NCBI GenBank assembly: GCA_947625595.1
Contig: CANQOX010000005.1
Span: 1 to 45,256, forward strand
DNA from: an uncultured Clostridia bacterium
GTDB taxonomy: Bacteria; Bacillota; Clostridia; Christensenellales; Borkfalkiaceae
Direction of reading: 5' to 3'
DNA length: 45,256 bases
Numbering within the stretch: position 1 is the first letter of the stretch; every line of letters begins with the position of its first letter. The notes under the pieces are model-generated. The model worked only from the letters and a program-made list of their open reading frames with translations. It made no database searches and was not told the DNA's origin. Made by a program: the position numbers and the translations under genes. Below, in pieces: positions 5,596 to 34,712 of the stretch.

Positions 5596-6225
5596 ATGGA
5601 ATACAGTGTAGTTCGGAGCAACAGGCGGACGGTCTCCATCGCCGTGAAGGGGGGTAAAGTCGTCGTCTATGCGCCTCTTGCCTATCCGCAGGATAAGATC
5701 GACGCCTTTGTCATCAAGCACAGGGTCTGGATCGCCCGCAGAGTAAAGGAGCAGGCGGAGGCCTTTGCGCCCGACTTTGCTGACGGCTCCGTCATGATCC
5801 TCCTCGGGAAGGAGAGGATCATCCGAACGGGAAGGACGGCTCTCACAGAGAGCGAAGTATTTCTTCCCGCCGAGGGGAGGGAGGAAGCGCTCACGAGGCT
5901 CATGAGAAAGCTCGCGCGGGAGCGTATGACCCGCCTCATCGCCGAGATCGCCGCCGTCTATAAGTTTCACTATGAGAAGCTCACGATCACTTCCGCACGA
6001 ACGCGGTGGGGCTCCTGCAACACGCGGGGGACGATCGCCTTCAGCTTCCGTTCGGCCGTCCTGCCCGACGGCCTCGCCGCCTACCTCGCCGTCCATGAGC
6101 TCTGTCACACGCGGCACATGGATCATAGCAAGGCTTTTTGGGAGGAGGTTTCGAGGATCCTACCCGATTACCGCGAGAGAAGGAAGGCGTTAAAGGGGTA
6201 TTCGTGGGCCATGAAATGCCTTTGA
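5596..6225 (+). CDS. YgjP/DUF45-family zinc metallopeptidase-like protein
   Basis: 209 residues of the DUF45 (YgjP, M48-like) family. The signature is WGSCNTRG, then the zinc site HELCHTRHMDHSKAFW near residues 170-187: HExxH replaced by HELCH as is normal in this family, plus the downstream His. Family members are cytoplasmic; no signal peptide or membrane segment is visible. Biological role is poorly known. It stands divergent from aroA with 75 bases between the start codons. No Shine-Dalgarno precedes the ATG; the -10 box ends 6 bases before it. Confidence 0.88.
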   Translation: MEYSVVRSNRRTVSIAVKGGKVVVYAPLAYPQDKIDAFVIKHRVWIARRVKEQAEAFAPDFADGSVMILLGKERIIRTGRTALTESEVFLPAEGREEALTRLMRKLARERMTRLIAEIAAVYKFHYEKLTITSARTRWGSCNTRGTIAFSFRSAVLPDGLAAYLAVHELCHTRHMDHSKAFWEEVSRILPDYRERRKALKGYSWAMKCL

Positions 6226-6250: not shown

Positions 6251-6273
6251 AGTACTTCGTCAGACATAGTACC
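6251..6273. repeat. Dispersed 23-bp palindrome, copy 1
   Basis: AGTACTTCGTC-A-GACATAGTACC. Consensus over five copies in the window is AGTACTATGTC-W-GACATAGTACT. This copy is flanked by the 9-bp direct repeat ATTTTGCGA (6242-6250 and 6278-6286). It lies between the ygjP-like gene and the next promoter. Confidence 0.6.
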
Positions 6274-9079: not shown

Positions 9080-10282
9080 TCATACTTCCCACGCTTGGAT
9101 CAGTTCGAGGAGGCGCGGGATCGTGAAGAGGGGAAGAAGAGACGCCTTTGCGGCGGCATTCCCCTCCACAAGTTCGGAGAGAAGCCGCGCTCGCTCCCCG
9201 TAGAATGCGGCCATCTGTGCTGTCTTTTTATCCGTCTTTTCCGTCAAAGACAGGAATTCGGCATACTCGGCGCGGAAGGCCTCCCTGTCTCCTTGCGCAA
9301 ACGCATCAACGCACTTCCAGAAACTCTTCCCAAAGGAGAACATTCGCGTCGTTATCTCGCCCAAATAGTCGCGGAAGTTCCCGTCGTCGCGGAGGGCAAA
9401 GTACGCAACGGCGATATTTAGCCGCAGAGCGTCGCAGATCTCGCTCCGCCCGTCGGGAAGCCAAACTTCGAGCAGAAATTTTGCATCCTTTATGGCGTGT
9501 TCGAATGCGTGCGCCTTCATATGTTTGTCGATCCTTTTCAGCCACAGCCGCGTGAACACAATGTTGCCGATCCCGAATGCGAGCACACACCCGCCAACGA
9601 CAAATTCCGCGGCAGTGCCGTCCCAGATCCCCAAGGCGCAGAGGACGACTGTGACGGCGATTGCCATGAGGATGATCCCGATGAGGATAATGAGCCCCAA
9701 CTTTCCCGTCTTTTTCGCGGGCGGGACGGTATGCGTGCGCGCGGAGACTTCCTCCCTCCGATCGGGAAAACTCGCATACAGTAGACGTCGCCTCTTGACC
9801 GTTAGGAGAAAAGTTATGATGACGCCCGCCTCCGACGCGACATGTAAGACGGCGCAGACCGCGAGGGGTGCGACCACCCAGGTGGCGAAGATCTCGCCCG
9901 ACGAGGTGACCTCGCCCCTTCCCCAAGCGATCCCCATGATGAGGAGCATGAGGAGGGGAGTGGAAAAGAAAATGATACAAAAGACGAGAAGTTCTTTCCT
10001 CGCCCGTCTGTACTCGCGTGCGAACATCTCGATCGCGAAGGCGATCTCTTCGCTCTCTTCTGCGTTGCTCTTTTCGCGTTTCCCGCAGAGCAGTTCCTCG
10101 ACGGTCACGCCGAGCGTCTCTGCGAGGAGAGCGAGTTTGCCCGAGCGCGGCTTTGCCTCTCCTGTCTCCCACTTGCTCACGGCCTTGTTCGATACGCCGA
10201 GGATCTTCCCGAGTTCGCTCTGCGACAATCCCTTTTCGGTCCGAAGTTCATAGATGAAATTGCCGAATCTGTAATCGTTCAT
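9080..10282 (-). CDS. XRE-family regulator with C-terminal membrane domain
   Basis: 400 residues. Residues 5-60 form a Cro/C1-type helix-turn-helix (LSQSELGKILGVSNKAVSKWETG). Residues about 97-119, 130-165, 194-219 and 225-247 are hydrophobic, so four or five membrane segments follow. The last 150 residues are soluble and helical. The DNA-binding head is thus held at the inner face of the membrane; the signal it senses is unknown. I start at the ATG 10282-10280 because GGAGGGG precedes it by 3 bases and the conserved fold begins there; an in-frame start at 10330 would lie on the -35 box. The coiled-coil PadR protein is next upstream on the same strand. Confidence 0.85.
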   Translation of the reverse strand: MNDYRFGNFIYELRTEKGLSQSELGKILGVSNKAVSKWETGEAKPRSGKLALLAETLGVTVEELLCGKREKSNAEESEEIAFAIEMFAREYRRARKELLVFCIIFFSTPLLMLLIMGIAWGRGEVTSSGEIFATWVVAPLAVCAVLHVASEAGVIITFLLTVKRRRLLYASFPDRREEVSARTHTVPPAKKTGKLGLIILIGIILMAIAVTVVLCALGIWDGTAAEFVVGGCVLAFGIGNIVFTRLWLKRIDKHMKAHAFEHAIKDAKFLLEVWLPDGRSEICDALRLNIAVAYFALRDDGNFRDYLGEITTRMFSFGKSFWKCVDAFAQGDREAFRAEYAEFLSLTEKTDKKTAQMAAFYGERARLLSELVEGNAAAKASLLPLFTIPRLLELIQAWEV

Positions 10283-10380: not shown

Positions 10381-12486
10381 TTACTTTTTCGGTTTAACCT
10401 GAACGAAGTAGCAGATCCCGAAGATGAGCTCACCCACAAAGAAGATGGCGGGGAGGAGCACATAGGTCATCAGTTGGGAGATGTCCGAGAAATCGATCCT
10501 GACGGAGAGCGCAACGATGAGAGCGATGATGTCGATGAGGACGTAGATGACGATCGCATTGATGAGCGCAAGGGAGGATTTCCGCAGTCGGTTTTCGCCG
10601 AAATGGTTGGCGTACATCAGTCCCGTCACGAGGGTGACGACAATGCCGAGGCACCACATGATGTAGGGATAGAAGGCGGGAATGGTGAGAGTTCCGCTCA
10701 AACCCATCGTGATGCCGCCGACGAGAATGCACCAAAGGAGGGTGAAAAGCGAGCTCAAAAAGAGCGCCTTGCCCTTGTGAACGGTGTTCACGATGTCCCG
10801 CTCCTTTGCGGCGACGGGCTTTGTCTCGCTTCCGACCGTCTCGACGCGGAGACCGTCGCGCGTGGCGCGCTTCTCGATGTCGCGGAAGTCGATCCCCGAG
10901 ACGGGCGTCGCCTCCGTGTCCTCCGTTGTCCTCGCGGGCGTGCGGACAGAATTCTCATAGAGCTGGCCGATGACAGAGCGGTAATCCTCCTGCTGGGGCG
11001 CGGGCTCCTCGGCGACGGGCGCGGCGGGCTGGGGACGGGAAGCGGGGGAGTCCACGAGCGAAATGAAGTTGCGGTGGATGATCTGCTTCTCGCGCTCTGC
11101 CATCTCCGCTTCCATCTGTCTGCGGAGGGCGGCGAGCTGATCCTCAAGCGCCTGTTGGTAGCGGGCGCGGTCGTCGCGGATCTGTGCGTCGTGGCGGGCG
11201 CTTTCCTCGGCAAGGGCGTTGTCGTACCGCTTTCTCTCCTCCATGAGGAGGGCGTCGAAGCGGTCGCGGTCGGCCGTTCTCTCGGCCTCGCGGAGTTTTG
11301 CCTCCTCGCCGCGGGCAAGGCGGACGGCGTCGTCCTGCGCCTTCTGCGCTTCCTCTCTCAAGGACTGCATCTCGCTGGCGTGCTTGTCCTCAAGTTCTCT
11401 GATGTCCTTCTCGCGAAGCTCTCTTTCGACGCGAAGCGACGCATCGCAGGCTTCGCGCTCCTCCGAGAGGGCCTGTTCGTTGGCCTCCTTAAGAGCGGAG
11501 AGGGCGCGTTCGTGTTCCTCGGCGGCCTCGTCAAATTTCTGCTTCTGCAATTCAAGCTCCGCCTTGAGGCTCTCGTCCTCCTCGGTCCTCTTGAGGACTT
11601 CGGCGTCCCTGTCGGCCTCGAGCTGTGCCCGCTCTTCGCTGATCTGCTGTTCGGCTTCCTCCCTTTGGGAGAGGAGAAGGGCCTCCTGCTGTTCGCGGAC
11701 GATGGCGAGCTGGCGAAGATTGGCGATGTAGGAGTCGTTGAGTTCCCTTTCGCGGGCGCTCATCTCCTCGGCCAAAGAGGCCTTCTCGGCCTCAAAATCG
11801 GCGCGTTCACGGTCGAGCGCGGCGAATTTTTCGGCATATTCGGTCTCGAGGGCCTGTTTTTTCTCATCAAAAGCGGCATCGAGCTCGGCCTGTCTCTCCT
11901 TGGCTTCCTCCTCGAATTTCTCCTTGAGGGCGGTGTCGTCAAAGCCCGCCTCGAAGGAAAATTCCTCGCCCTCGTCCTCATCGCCTGCGCGGGAGGGGAC
12001 GCGGGAAGTGGACTGCCGCAGAACGCGCATGTCCACGGCCGTGGGGGCAGGCATGTTGAAGTCAAAGTCGCGGTCTGAGATGAGCGAATCGATGATCGTG
12101 CGGGAATACTCCCACTCCGCCTGATTCTGCTCGGAGACCGCCTTGCCCTCGTCGGTGAGGGAGAAGTATTTTCTCCTGCCTCCGCCCACGGAGCCGCCCC
12201 AATAAGAGGTGATGTAGCCGTCCTTCTCGAGCCGTTTGAGCGCGGAGTAGAGGGAGGGCTGTTTCAAAGTGTATTGCCCCGAGCTCTTGCGTTCGATCTC
12301 GGCTATGATCTCATAGCCGTACTTGTCGCCGTCATAGAGCGAACGAAGAATGATCGTATTGATATGGCCGCGGATGAGGTCGGCGCTGACGCTCTTCTCG
12401 GCTCTGTCGTCGTCCTCGGCGGCATCTGCGGAACCGACGGAAGTCGCTTCGTCGTCCGTATCTACAGTCATGGTTTCGTCGTCCAT
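10381..12486 (-). CDS. PadR-type regulator with long coiled coil and membrane anchor
   Basis: 701 residues in four parts. Residues 1-35 are acidic. Residues 36-120 are a PadR winged helix (LRSLYDGDKYGYEIIAEIE, PSLYSALKRLEKDGYI, GGRRKYFSLTDEG). Residues about 185-472 are an almost unbroken Glu/Ala/Arg/Lys-rich coiled coil. A Pro/Ala/Glu linker leads to four hydrophobic segments (about 574-595, 603-625, 640-662, 674-697). Usual PadR proteins have 100-190 residues and no membrane part. The start at 12486-12484 is set by AAGGAGG 6 bases upstream; an in-frame ATG at 12567 lies beyond the promoter. Function is not known; tethering DNA or reporting envelope state are possibilities only. Confidence 0.85.
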   Translation of the reverse strand: MDDETMTVDTDDEATSVGSADAAEDDDRAEKSVSADLIRGHINTIILRSLYDGDKYGYEIIAEIERKSSGQYTLKQPSLYSALKRLEKDGYITSYWGGSVGGGRRKYFSLTDEGKAVSEQNQAEWEYSRTIIDSLISDRDFDFNMPAPTAVDMRVLRQSTSRVPSRAGDEDEGEEFSFEAGFDDTALKEKFEEEAKERQAELDAAFDEKKQALETEYAEKFAALDRERADFEAEKASLAEEMSARERELNDSYIANLRQLAIVREQQEALLLSQREEAEQQISEERAQLEADRDAEVLKRTEEDESLKAELELQKQKFDEAAEEHERALSALKEANEQALSEEREACDASLRVERELREKDIRELEDKHASEMQSLREEAQKAQDDAVRLARGEEAKLREAERTADRDRFDALLMEERKRYDNALAEESARHDAQIRDDRARYQQALEDQLAALRRQMEAEMAEREKQIIHRNFISLVDSPASRPQPAAPVAEEPAPQQEDYRSVIGQLYENSVRTPARTTEDTEATPVSGIDFRDIEKRATRDGLRVETVGSETKPVAAKERDIVNTVHKGKALFLSSLFTLLWCILVGGITMGLSGTLTIPAFYPYIMWCLGIVVTLVTGLMYANHFGENRLRKSSLALINAIVIYVLIDIIALIVALSVRIDFSDISQLMTYVLLPAIFFVGELIFGICYFVQVKPKK

Positions 12487-12514: not shown

Positions 12515-12543
12515 ATTATACGACAAATTTCGTTTTTTGTCAA
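12515..12543 (-). promoter_or_regulatory. Consensus promoter of the PadR-type gene
   Basis: Minus strand TTGACA (12543-12538), 17-bp spacer, TATAAT (12520-12515): both boxes perfect. A copy of the 23-bp palindrome lies 7 bases upstream of the -35 box. Confidence 0.9.
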
Positions 12544-12550
12544 TAGGCAG

Positions 12551-12573
12551 AGTACTATGTCTGACATAATTTT
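12551..12573. repeat. Dispersed 23-bp palindrome, copy 2
   Basis: AGTACTATGTC-T-GACATA is intact; the outer right arm (GTACT) is replaced by an AT run. Located between the divergent PadR-type and YkvI-like genes. Confidence 0.6.
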
Positions 12574-12601: not shown

Positions 12602-12624
12602 ATACCTCTGTCAGACATAAGAAA
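12602..12624. repeat. Dispersed 23-bp palindrome, copy 3 (degenerate)
   Basis: Only the core CTGTC-A-GACATA matches the consensus; the outer arms are changed. It sits 40 bases from copy 2, and AGTACTATG occurs again at 12635-12643 at the start of the YkvI-like gene. Confidence 0.4.
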
Positions 12625-12629
12625 AGGGG

Positions 12630-13685
12630 ATGGGAGTACTATGCGGCGCATTGTTTATCGTCGGGGGCACGATCGGCGCGGGATTCATCACGGGAGCCGA
12701 ACTTGTCCGCTTTTTCGGCGCGAAGAACTTTCTCTTCCCGCTGATCTTGTCCTGCCTTATCTTCTTCATCCTCACCCTGCTTCACCTTCATCTCGGGAAA
12801 AAGCACGGCGGAGCGGCGGGCGTCTTCGCGCTCTTCGGGCGGGGCGAAAAGGTCGTCCGCCTCATTGTCCTTCTGTGTGCCTTCGTCTCCTCGGCGGGCA
12901 TGCTCGCGGGGCTGGACGCGCTCCTTCCGTCTCTCTCGCCGCTTCTGTCCCTCGCGGGGCTTGCAGTCGCATGCCTCTTCCTCGCAAGGGGCATCGGCGG
13001 CATCTCAAAGTTCAACTTTGTCCTCGTACCGCTGCTTATCGCCTTTGTCTTCTTCTACGCCCGCGGCGGGCTGAGGCTCTCCTATCCGATCGCCCAAGGA
13101 GGCGGGCTCGGCCTCCTCTATGCGGGTATGAACGTCTTCTTCATGGCGCCCGTCCTGATGGACGCGGGAAGGGAGATGAAACGCCCGCTCCTGTCCTCGC
13201 TCCTCGCCGCGGGGATCGTCCTTGCGGCCGCGGTCTGCATTCTCGGGAGCGTCTGCCGCGAGGGGGCAAACGCCGTCACCGCCGAGATGCCTTTCCTTGC
13301 CGTCGCGAAGGGGAAGGCCTTCTCCTTCGCCGTGGGGCTTGCCATCCTGACTTCTCTCGTCTCCTCGCTCTATACGCCGTTCTCGCTCTGTGACGCCCTG
13401 AAGGGAAAAAAGAAAATCGCCGCGAAGGGCGCAACGGTCCTTGCGGCGTTTCTTCTGTCAAGATTGGGTCTGAAGGGCATCGTCGGGCTCATCTATCCCT
13501 TCATCGGCGGGGCGGGGATCCTCTTTTCAGCTCTTTGCATCCTTTACGATCAACTTCTCGAGAAGGGCAACAAGGGCGTACATGCCTGCGGCGAGCACGC
13601 AGAGAATGCAGGTCGCGCTCATCACGAGGTCGAGCTTGAACACCTGCCCGCCGTAGACGATGAGGTACCCGAGGCCCGCCCGTGA
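12630..13685 (+). CDS. YkvI-like integral membrane transporter
   Basis: 351 residues, about ten hydrophobic segments, opening with GGTIGAGFITGAELVRFFG, which resembles the first segment of YkvI-type (APC-superfamily-like) permeases. The substrate is unknown. Residues after about 308 (from LEKGNKG) are polar and unlike the rest: they are the reverse strand of the ABC permease gene, giving a 159-base tail-to-tail overlap. The natural C-terminus was probably near residue 305, so the original stop may have been lost. A TAA lies 9 bases before the ATG at 12630, so the start cannot be further upstream. The Shine-Dalgarno is poor (GGGG directly against the ATG). Confidence 0.75.
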   Translation: MGVLCGALFIVGGTIGAGFITGAELVRFFGAKNFLFPLILSCLIFFILTLLHLHLGKKHGGAAGVFALFGRGEKVVRLIVLLCAFVSSAGMLAGLDALLPSLSPLLSLAGLAVACLFLARGIGGISKFNFVLVPLLIAFVFFYARGGLRLSYPIAQGGGLGLLYAGMNVFFMAPVLMDAGREMKRPLLSSLLAAGIVLAAAVCILGSVCREGANAVTAEMPFLAVAKGKAFSFAVGLAILTSLVSSLYTPFSLCDALKGKKKIAAKGATVLAAFLLSRLGLKGIVGLIYPFIGGAGILFSALCILYDQLLEKGNKGVHACGEHAENAGRAHHEVELEHLPAVDDEVPEARP

Positions 13686-21633: not shown

Positions 21634-21656
21634 AGTACTATGTCAGACATAATGCA
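21634..21656. repeat. Dispersed 23-bp palindrome, copy 4
   Basis: AGTACTATGTC-A-GACATAATGCA: core and left arm match the consensus. Imperfect 9-bp direct repeats flank it: AATGCGATT (21619-21627) and AATGCAATT (21651-21659). It lies between the convergent adhE and rplI genes. Confidence 0.6.
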
Positions 21657-34192: not shown

Positions 34193-34708
34193 ATGAACTA
34201 CGCAGAGATCAAAAAATGTGATATCGCAAATGGAGAGGGAGTCAGAGTCTCCCTCTTTGTTTCGGGTTGCAGACGGCATTGCAAGGGGTGTTTCAATTCC
34301 GTTGCATGGGATTTTTCGTACGGAAAGCCCTTCACCGCGGAGACGGAGGGGGAACTTTTCGATGCGCTCACGCCCGACTATATCGCGGGGCTGTCCCTGC
34401 TCGGCGGGGATCCCTTTGAGCCCGAGAACAGGGCCGCGCTCCTCCCCTTTGTCAGAAAATTCCGCGAAAAATTTCCCCAAAAGGACGTCTGGTGCTACAC
34501 GGGCTATACCTATGCGGACGGAACGTTGAAGGAGGACGACGGCGAGGGGGTGAGGGAACTTCTCTCCCTCATCGACATTCTCGTCGACGGGCCCTTTGTC
34601 GAGGGCCTGAAGGACATCCGCCTCAAATTCCGCGGCTCATCCAATCAGCGCGTCCTCGACCTGAATGCTACAAGAGAGCGCGGGAGCATAGTACTATATC
34701 TGACATAG
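34193..34708 (+). CDS. nrdG: Anaerobic RNR-activating protein (radical SAM)
   Basis: 171 residues. Radical SAM cysteines C26-x3-C30-x2-C33 (CRRHCKGC) hold the 4Fe-4S cluster that cleaves S-adenosylmethionine and puts the radical on G700 of NrdD. LLGGDPFEP is the SAM-binding GGE-like segment. It follows nrdD by 6 bases. The last codons, LYLT and the stop TAG, are written by a copy of the 23-bp palindrome. Confidence 0.94.
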   Translation: MNYAEIKKCDIANGEGVRVSLFVSGCRRHCKGCFNSVAWDFSYGKPFTAETEGELFDALTPDYIAGLSLLGGDPFEPENRAALLPFVRKFREKFPQKDVWCYTGYTYADGTLKEDDGEGVRELLSLIDILVDGPFVEGLKDIRLKFRGSSNQRVLDLNATRERGSIVLYLT

Positions 34709-34712
34709 TACT
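34690..34712. repeat. Dispersed 23-bp palindrome, copy 5
   Basis: AGTACTATATC-T-GACATAGTACT: 11-bp arms with one mismatch, the most complete copy. It contains the nrdG stop codon (34706-34708). Confidence 0.65.

Follow-up and report, generated by a model that had tools for sequence, protein, structure and literature searches.

A PadR-type protein with a membrane domain and a polar palindrome around dif as a candidate terminus-anchoring system in Candidatus Gallimonas

One described counterpart of the system reported here is MatP/matS, the system of the terminus macrodomain in Enterobacteria and Vibrio, which combines a DNA-binding protein with a short palindrome that recurs throughout the terminus region around dif. 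Polar sites that flank dif and point at it are known from RTP/ter of Bacillus and Tus/ter of E. coli, and RTP has a winged-helix fold. In other bacteria FtsK reads polar dif-directed motifs (KOPS); FtsK/SpoIIIE proteins combine four transmembrane helices and a long linker of variable length with a winged helix for reading such motifs. PadR regulators control their own or a neighbouring gene via an inverted repeat of the ATGT/ACAT type and are, to our knowledge, small and soluble. In the excerpts of the papers cited here, ter sites are described as asymmetric, flanking dif and pointing at it, and the two described fork-trap proteins as limited to few clades (PMC6549158), with RTP acting as a dimer on overlapping half-sites (PMC10331603). 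According to excerpts of the same kind, MatP links the terminus and the divisome (PMC6549158) and touches lipid membranes (PMC6538776), ZapT of Caulobacter binds terminus DNA and is tied to the division ring via ZauP/ZapA (PMC7858052), FtsK reads polar motifs directed at dif in other bacteria, and XerS/difSL has its dif-type site near the recombinase gene (PMC5357621). Among the matches listed in the open-licence PMC literature (PadR with membrane or terminus, Clostridia fork traps, Gallimonas and tethers; no preprints) the present system was not described, and no terminus organiser for these Clostridia was found among them.

The window, i.e. the whole stretch of DNA analysed here, comprises 45,256 nucleotides (contig CANQOX010000005.1 of assembly GCA_947625595.1) from an uncultured member of the Borkfalkiaceae belonging to the genus Candidatus Gallimonas. 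It encodes on the minus strand (10381-12486, ATG at 12486) a protein of 701 aa, here called PadR-TM. With a probability of roughly 0.6 we regard PadR-TM as a membrane-anchored terminus-binding protein that tethers the dif region to the membrane, MatP/matS-like in function. Its N-terminal winged helix (residues 35-136, 12079-12384, minus strand) was delimited by Pfam, matches to solved structures and AlphaFold2. PF03551 (PadR) matched residues 46-117 with an E-value of 2.4e-19 and 69.5 bits against a curated cut-off of 27, and profile A1 matched the solved PadR structures 1xma (1.6e-34) and 3f8c (2.2e-28), the latter presumably LmrR; among solved structures 1xma, 9qbc and the 3f8c group were closest to the PadR head. 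A long charged helical spacer follows (residues 188-478, 11053-11925, minus strand), for which AlphaFold2, run with 45 aligned sequences, predicted helices at residues 188-350 and 358-478, that is 284 residues within a span of 291. Residues 183-475 consist to 47% of D/E/K/R with no Pro and one Gly, and because heptad periodicity is weak in this region, a coiled coil could not be told apart from a single charged helix. Around Y502 (10942-10992, minus strand) lies a short pre-membrane motif of the [DEN]Y[KR]xV type, which by our reading of alignment A4 is discernible in most aligned families. The C-terminus carries hydrophobic segments predicted to form four transmembrane helices (residues 571-596, 605-626, 640-661 and 669-697; 10396-10776, minus strand). 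Both structure models, of the full protein and of the C-terminal domain alone, give these four helices, the latter with pLDDT mostly above 90 in the transmembrane part. The full-protein model had a pTM of 0.29, so that the relative placing of the parts is not fixed by it.

The transmembrane domain belongs to no known family. It stayed below every Pfam cut-off, no functional homologue of it was found, and a profile of it, run against 117 further genomes from the class that included members of the same order, gave only four weak partial matches. DUF1129, which together with DUF1700 and DUF1048 makes up the HAAS domains, matched 4 of 55 transmembrane domains (best E 0.0033). The Pfam matches of PadR-TM included no MatP model (E≤0.01), no RTP match (PF02334) and no FtsK-type motor domain. 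A second PadR gene was not found in the own genome (1.5-Mb assembly, 88% completeness). The adjacent gene at 9080-10282 (minus strand) encodes an HTH_3 domain (PF01381, E 4e-15) followed by four hydrophobic segments, and is thus a predicted second membrane-bound DNA-binding protein.

PadR-TM differs in several respects from the systems introduced above. Unlike MatP it reads DNA, if the assignment is right, with a PadR winged helix, which is an unrelated fold, it has an integral membrane anchor, and the sites are polar. It differs from RTP/ter and Tus/ter in being membrane-anchored and in that some sites are two-sided. In contrast to ZapT, the DNA reader carries its own membrane anchor. Compared with FtsK/SpoIIIE the domain order is reversed, there is no motor and the sites are palindromic; FtsK is separately present. 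PadR/LmrR and HAAS-PadR proteins share the winged helix and, in the cited excerpt, links to membrane proteins (PMC11237479), but HAAS-PadR pairs consist of a HAAS domain and a stand-alone PadR, whereas here the head and the membrane domain lie in one chain. Solved PadR proteins among the matches have 98-204 residues, and the build of PadR head, rod and membrane domain is not seen among the known PadR-type proteins compared.

The window protein was matched in 56 of 61 genomes including 37/37 of the genus (own genome counted), and many of the matches outside Gallimonas were short PadR proteins. Of 40 fetched regions 39 held a complete ORF of 421-1202 aa, the remaining one being cut by the contig end. 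All 39 complete orthologues keep the N-terminal PadR domain and the C-terminal hydrophobic segments, with four such segments in 37 and three above threshold in two. Much of the winged helix is invariant (35 columns in an alignment of 8 sequences). The build is also kept in 7/24 sampled sister families, where the two ends are joined by a low-complexity linker, disordered and not coiled-looking, in place of the long helix. Within Gallimonas the spacer between the FDF and pre-membrane motifs measured 278-711 residues in 74 of 76 orthologues. Since linker length varies and linker type differs between families, it is the two ends that are conserved, the spacer being free. The preliminary description of this locus had proposed a PadR winged helix, a long helical region and four membrane segments, and this architecture is borne out by the PF03551 match, the AlphaFold2 helices and the four predicted transmembrane segments. 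Its coil of about 290 residues agrees with the helical span in length, the choice between coiled coil and single charged helix being left as stated above, and the coiled coil as an essential part is contradicted by the variable or low-complexity linkers. The objections it raised against itself, fusion by assembly and loss of HTH residues in relatives, are answered by the 39 orthologues and the largely invariant winged helix, and the taxonomic survey it suggested placed the build in Gallimonas and the seven sister families. Its suggestion that the protein could keep a distant DNA site at the membrane would fit the terminus-centred sites described below together with the membrane domain.

Upstream of the gene lies a promoter (TTGACA-17-TATAAT, 12515-12543, minus strand) matching the consensus at 12/12 positions, just as previously noted in the preliminary description, which predicted high expression from it; among 75 orthologues, 62 have both hexamers without a mismatch. 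Twelve bp from its -35 box we found a candidate operator (12551-12573, unstranded) whose 13-bp core (12556-12568) is exact; of its two arms one is full and the other degenerate. This core is TATGTCWGACATA within AGTACTATGTCWGACATAGTACT, and the consensus of the polar palindrome is TTTTGCATAGTACTATGTCWGACATAAT; we take the palindrome to be a PadR-like inverted repeat (ATGT...ACAT). A second copy with one mismatch (12607-12619) adjoins the start of a divergent gene (12630-13685, plus strand) that encodes 351 aa with about ten hydrophobic segments and matches no Pfam or NCBIfam family at E≤0.01; by our reading a similar divergent start lies upstream of many Gallimonas orthologues. The palindrome was present upstream of the -35 box in 67/75 orthologues at up to one mismatch and in 71/75 at up to three (exact in 47, one mismatch in 20, two or three mismatches in 4), and in these 71 its spacing to the -35 box of the TTGACA/TATAAT promoter was 11-14 bp. 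In G053, a genome of a different family, the one exact copy in the genome is located at the promoter of the PadR-TM gene, where the exact control also gave one match and counts at up to one mismatch were 9 versus 7 for the control. The near-fixed operator position in orthologues and the copy in the G053 promoter link the palindrome to the protein, and judged by these patterns it is very probable that the protein's own site is this palindrome next to its promoter. The preliminary description had named it as such; that part stands as an operator candidate, and what it missed is the dispersed, polar, terminus-centred set of sites pointing at dif. In G041, of another family, the PadR-TM promoter (L065, about 5681-5705) carries a different perfect palindrome, ATTTTACATC-N5-GATGTAAAAT, which is single on its contig.

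Within the window TATGTCWGACATA occurs exactly at 12556 and 21639 and with one mismatch at 12607 and 34695, and a limit of two mismatches yields 9 strand-matches, spread over 5 places, where 0.17 would be expected. The copy with exact core 21639-21651 (site 21634-21656) lies between two convergent genes, 28 bp past a stop codon. The site at 34690-34712 has one core mismatch and full arms on both sides and overlaps the end of the ORF 34193-34708, whose stop codon lies within the overlap. A weak terminus-like site with two core mismatches is found as a sequence match at 6251-6273. The own genome has 24 places at up to one mismatch against one for the reversed control. Exact copies were present in 35 of the 37 genus genomes (control 0), and the 23-mer at up to three mismatches in 99/103 genus genomes (control 0 in 103). 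In other families 4/24 genomes had 1-2 exact copies, with one control match each in two genomes.

A one-component membrane regulator of the ordinary type, either CadC-like or derived from a HAAS-PadR pair by fusion and with a regulon defined by the palindrome, would fit the PadR family membership and the site at the own promoter. It would also fit the sites 15-67 bp upstream of thrS in three genomes, and HAAS-PadR pairs, in the cited excerpt, tie PadR to membrane-stress signalling (PMC11237479). Gene context, judged with our own simple gene caller, speaks on both sides. Six of the 24 own-genome places lie within 100 bp upstream of a start, two of them solely so (one being the operator) and four also just after a stop. 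However, 10/24 lie within 35 bp after a stop codon (including the four that are also within 100 bp of a start) and 6/24 inside called ORFs, with six elsewhere. Sites also lie inside dxs in four genomes and inside spoIIIAE in four genomes, the spoIIIAE assignment scoring below its NCBIfam cut-off. Moreover, the sites cluster at the terminus, and their polarity is that of the replichore even next to genes with the opposite direction. The distribution of the palindrome thus does not look like an obvious regulon, and we consider a membrane regulator of this kind quite improbable. The sites inside dxs and spoIIIAE are read in the same frame, as STLSDI or STMSDI (L087 2981, L093 11461). In three species (L098, L108, L124) a terminus site lies in the thrS leader, where it might influence expression of thrS as well.

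A small mobile or selfish repeat gathered near the terminus is disfavoured and in our view highly improbable. Dispersed palindromes, often just after gene 3' ends, would suit it, but, A/T preferences aside, the copies have little sequence in common further out than about 23 bp in one direction and 3 bp in the other. Its positions are moreover orthologous across species (dxs, spoIIIAE, thrS, dif), and its polarity is tied to dif.

Exact sites are concentrated on the contig carrying the PadR-TM gene in genomes where that contig is long. In G007 9/14 exact sites were on this contig (binomial P 3e-4), in G130 5/8 (7e-4), in G127 2/2 (0.05) and in G129 2/4 (0.09). For G015 the count was 5/6 with the operator left out (2e-5), a value that is not clean because the genome was picked after its clustering had been noticed. 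G128, picked together with the others for its long padR contig, gave 0/1, its single exact site being on another contig with a reversed control of also one. The short padR contigs of G018 (0/6), G028 (1/6) and G017 (1/13), again without the operator, say little; G120, with 34 exact sites on many contigs, stood outside this test. Within all five padR contigs studied the gene strands flip from right-pointing to left-pointing, and a cumulative GC-skew maximum lies near the flip on 4/5 contigs (weakly in G007), none being seen near it in 80 kb of G129. The gene dnaA is on a contig other than that of the PadR-TM gene in 9/9 genomes with a known padR contig, and no exact site was found on the dnaA contig, in some cases a short one, in 9/9 genomes with full site lists.

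The switch region of G007 encodes scpB, a pseudouridine synthase, lexA, hflX and a tyrosine recombinase, which scores best with the XerS model, though below that model's cut-off. Beside the XerS-like gene a dif-like site, AACTATTCGCAAAA-N6-TTTTACGAATAGTT, was present in 8/8 genomes with a variable 6-bp centre that differs between species and few arm changes; in the own genome it is at G000:C61:1230-1263. At up to three mismatches it was found in 96/103 genus genomes (control 0), with G008 and G126 as the two exceptions to a single place per genome, and this predicted dif-type site is newly found for Gallimonas. G008 has two dif-like places on different contigs and is perhaps a mixed bin. In G007 and G002 an extra dif half (TTTTACGAATAG) lies upstream of xer close to its start codon, possibly indicating autoregulation by the recombinase.

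A palindrome copy lies about 85-250 bp beyond dif in 8/8 genomes (better copy with 0-2 mismatches), and in six of these a second copy at up to three mismatches follows 18-20 bp from the first; in G000 the two copies have opposite arms. In a scan within 600 bp of dif, 27 of 30 fetched genomes with dif (two overlapping with the eight) had a copy at up to two mismatches, 158-377 bp from dif (control 0/30), 13 of the copies being at up to one mismatch and 9 exact; only 2/30 genomes had a doublet at up to two mismatches. Across the contigs studied the sites spread out to about 100 kb on one side of dif and 190 kb on the other, and on the five long contigs they lie to either side of the replication terminus as marked by the gene-strand flip, the GC skew (4/5) and dif. 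Short palindromic sites are thus concentrated at the terminus in the manner of matS, with G128 and the short contigs as exceptions. In 4 of 7 sister-family loci (G038, G041, G045, G059) the PadR-TM gene itself lies beside xer, about 0.1-1.1 kb apart, and xer was not found in 9-10 kb around the gene in G053, G049 and G055.

The sites are polar with respect to dif. Orientation by replichore alone of 43 sites more than 6 kb from the strand switch yielded the consensus AAAwt-N5-TTTTGCATAGTACTATGTCAGACATAATA, in which information extends for 23 bp towards the origin and, leaving aside more distant A/T preferences, for 3 bp towards dif. Taking dif as boundary on five contigs, we counted 15 L, 1 R and 1 tie on the left and 2 L, 24 R and 3 ties on the right (Fisher 2e-8), so that 39/42 non-tied sites point at dif; with the gene-strand switch as boundary the counts were 14/1 and 6/26 (p 1.4e-6), these P values, like those for clustering, overstating certainty because they assume independence among related species that have part of their sites in orthologous positions. 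Polarity in the own genome was uniform on contigs C7 (5/5), C18 (3/3), C21 (2/2) and C78 (2/2), whereas C5 (3 L, 1 near-tie) and the dif-bearing contig C61 were mixed. At the operator locus polarity follows the replichore although the PadR-TM gene points against it: right-side sites in ++ context numbered 6 R, 1 tie and 0 L, the six being the operator locus of four genomes. Two-sided sites with full arms on both sides occur at 34695 in the window and at 189113 on G007:C1.

Polar sites flanking dif and pointing at it, as found on the five contigs, are the arrangement of a fork trap. A polar fork barrier, a third fork trap beside Tus/ter and RTP/ter, would let forks pass towards dif and stop them when leaving, the anchor adding strength or place. 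It would account for the asymmetric sites, and the overlap of two palindromes, CATAGTACTATG and TATGTCWGACATA, is reminiscent of the A/B half-sites in RTP terminators, as these appear in the cited excerpt (PMC10331603). The RTP gene (PF02334) is also missing from 10/10 Gallimonas genomes in a search that found B. subtilis as control. However, the two-sided sites and the dif-proximal doublets, the latter in 6/8 genomes and only 2/30 of the wider set, speak against a pure polar fork barrier because forks from both sides would be stopped there, and a barrier needs no transmembrane rod. Strict polarity is in turn not expected of a simple MatP-like tether and counts against the tether reading; since such a tether leaves it unexplained, the fork barrier is the foremost rival, albeit an unlikely one.

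Alternatively, the palindromes might be read by another factor, either an FtsK-type translocase or a so far unnamed soluble terminus protein, with the PadR copy due to the terminus location of the gene. FtsK with a gamma domain was present in 10/10 genomes. G054, of another family, had 11 sites, two of them exact, where the control gave 1, and only a short PadR match was found there; this excess is unexplained by the tether reading and would suit a different reader. Against such a reader stand the near-fixed spacing to the -35 box of the PadR-TM promoter in 67/75 orthologues together with the G053 promoter copy, and the PadR-like inverted repeat of the site. FtsK motifs are short, non-palindromic and far more frequent. 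We therefore regard reading by another factor as very unlikely. In the sister-family genomes G038, G045, G049 and G059 the PadR-TM gene is present and sites are at or near background. Since sister-family counts other than the G053 operator are near background or mismatched, the pairing of protein and site is limited to Gallimonas and that one operator.

Taken as a tether, PadR-TM would work as follows. Its N-terminal PadR dimer would bind the polar palindrome at sites around dif, one copy adjoining dif, and the long helix, or the low-complexity linker in sister families, would span from the nucleoid to the membrane, where the four transmembrane helices would hold the opposite end with the DNA-reading head inside the cell. 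As a consequence the dif/terminus region would be linked to the membrane, with the division site as the likeliest place, and dif would be kept where FtsK and the XerS-like recombinase act. The palindrome at the own promoter would set the protein level by autoregulation. Because the palindrome is dispersed, polar, terminus-centred and pointing at dif, PadR-TM looks like a chromosome-organising factor, and since FtsK with its gamma domain occurs in ten of ten genomes and RTP in none, the dif/FtsK/Xer machinery probably exists to be served. More tentatively, and rather doubtfully at present, this might be a third independently evolved system of dif-directed polar sites, read by a transmembrane winged-helix protein that ties the terminus to the membrane, with the polarity also directing forks or FtsK near dif. 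PadR-TM would then be a motor-less mirror image of FtsK, composed of a reader, a length-variable rod and four transmembrane helices.

In this uncultured gut genus a conserved gene, a likely operator, a defined polar site, dif and an XerS-like recombinase make up a single testable system. If the tether reading is true, it would represent a direct link from DNA to membrane at the terminus, in which spacer length evolves freely and both ends are kept.
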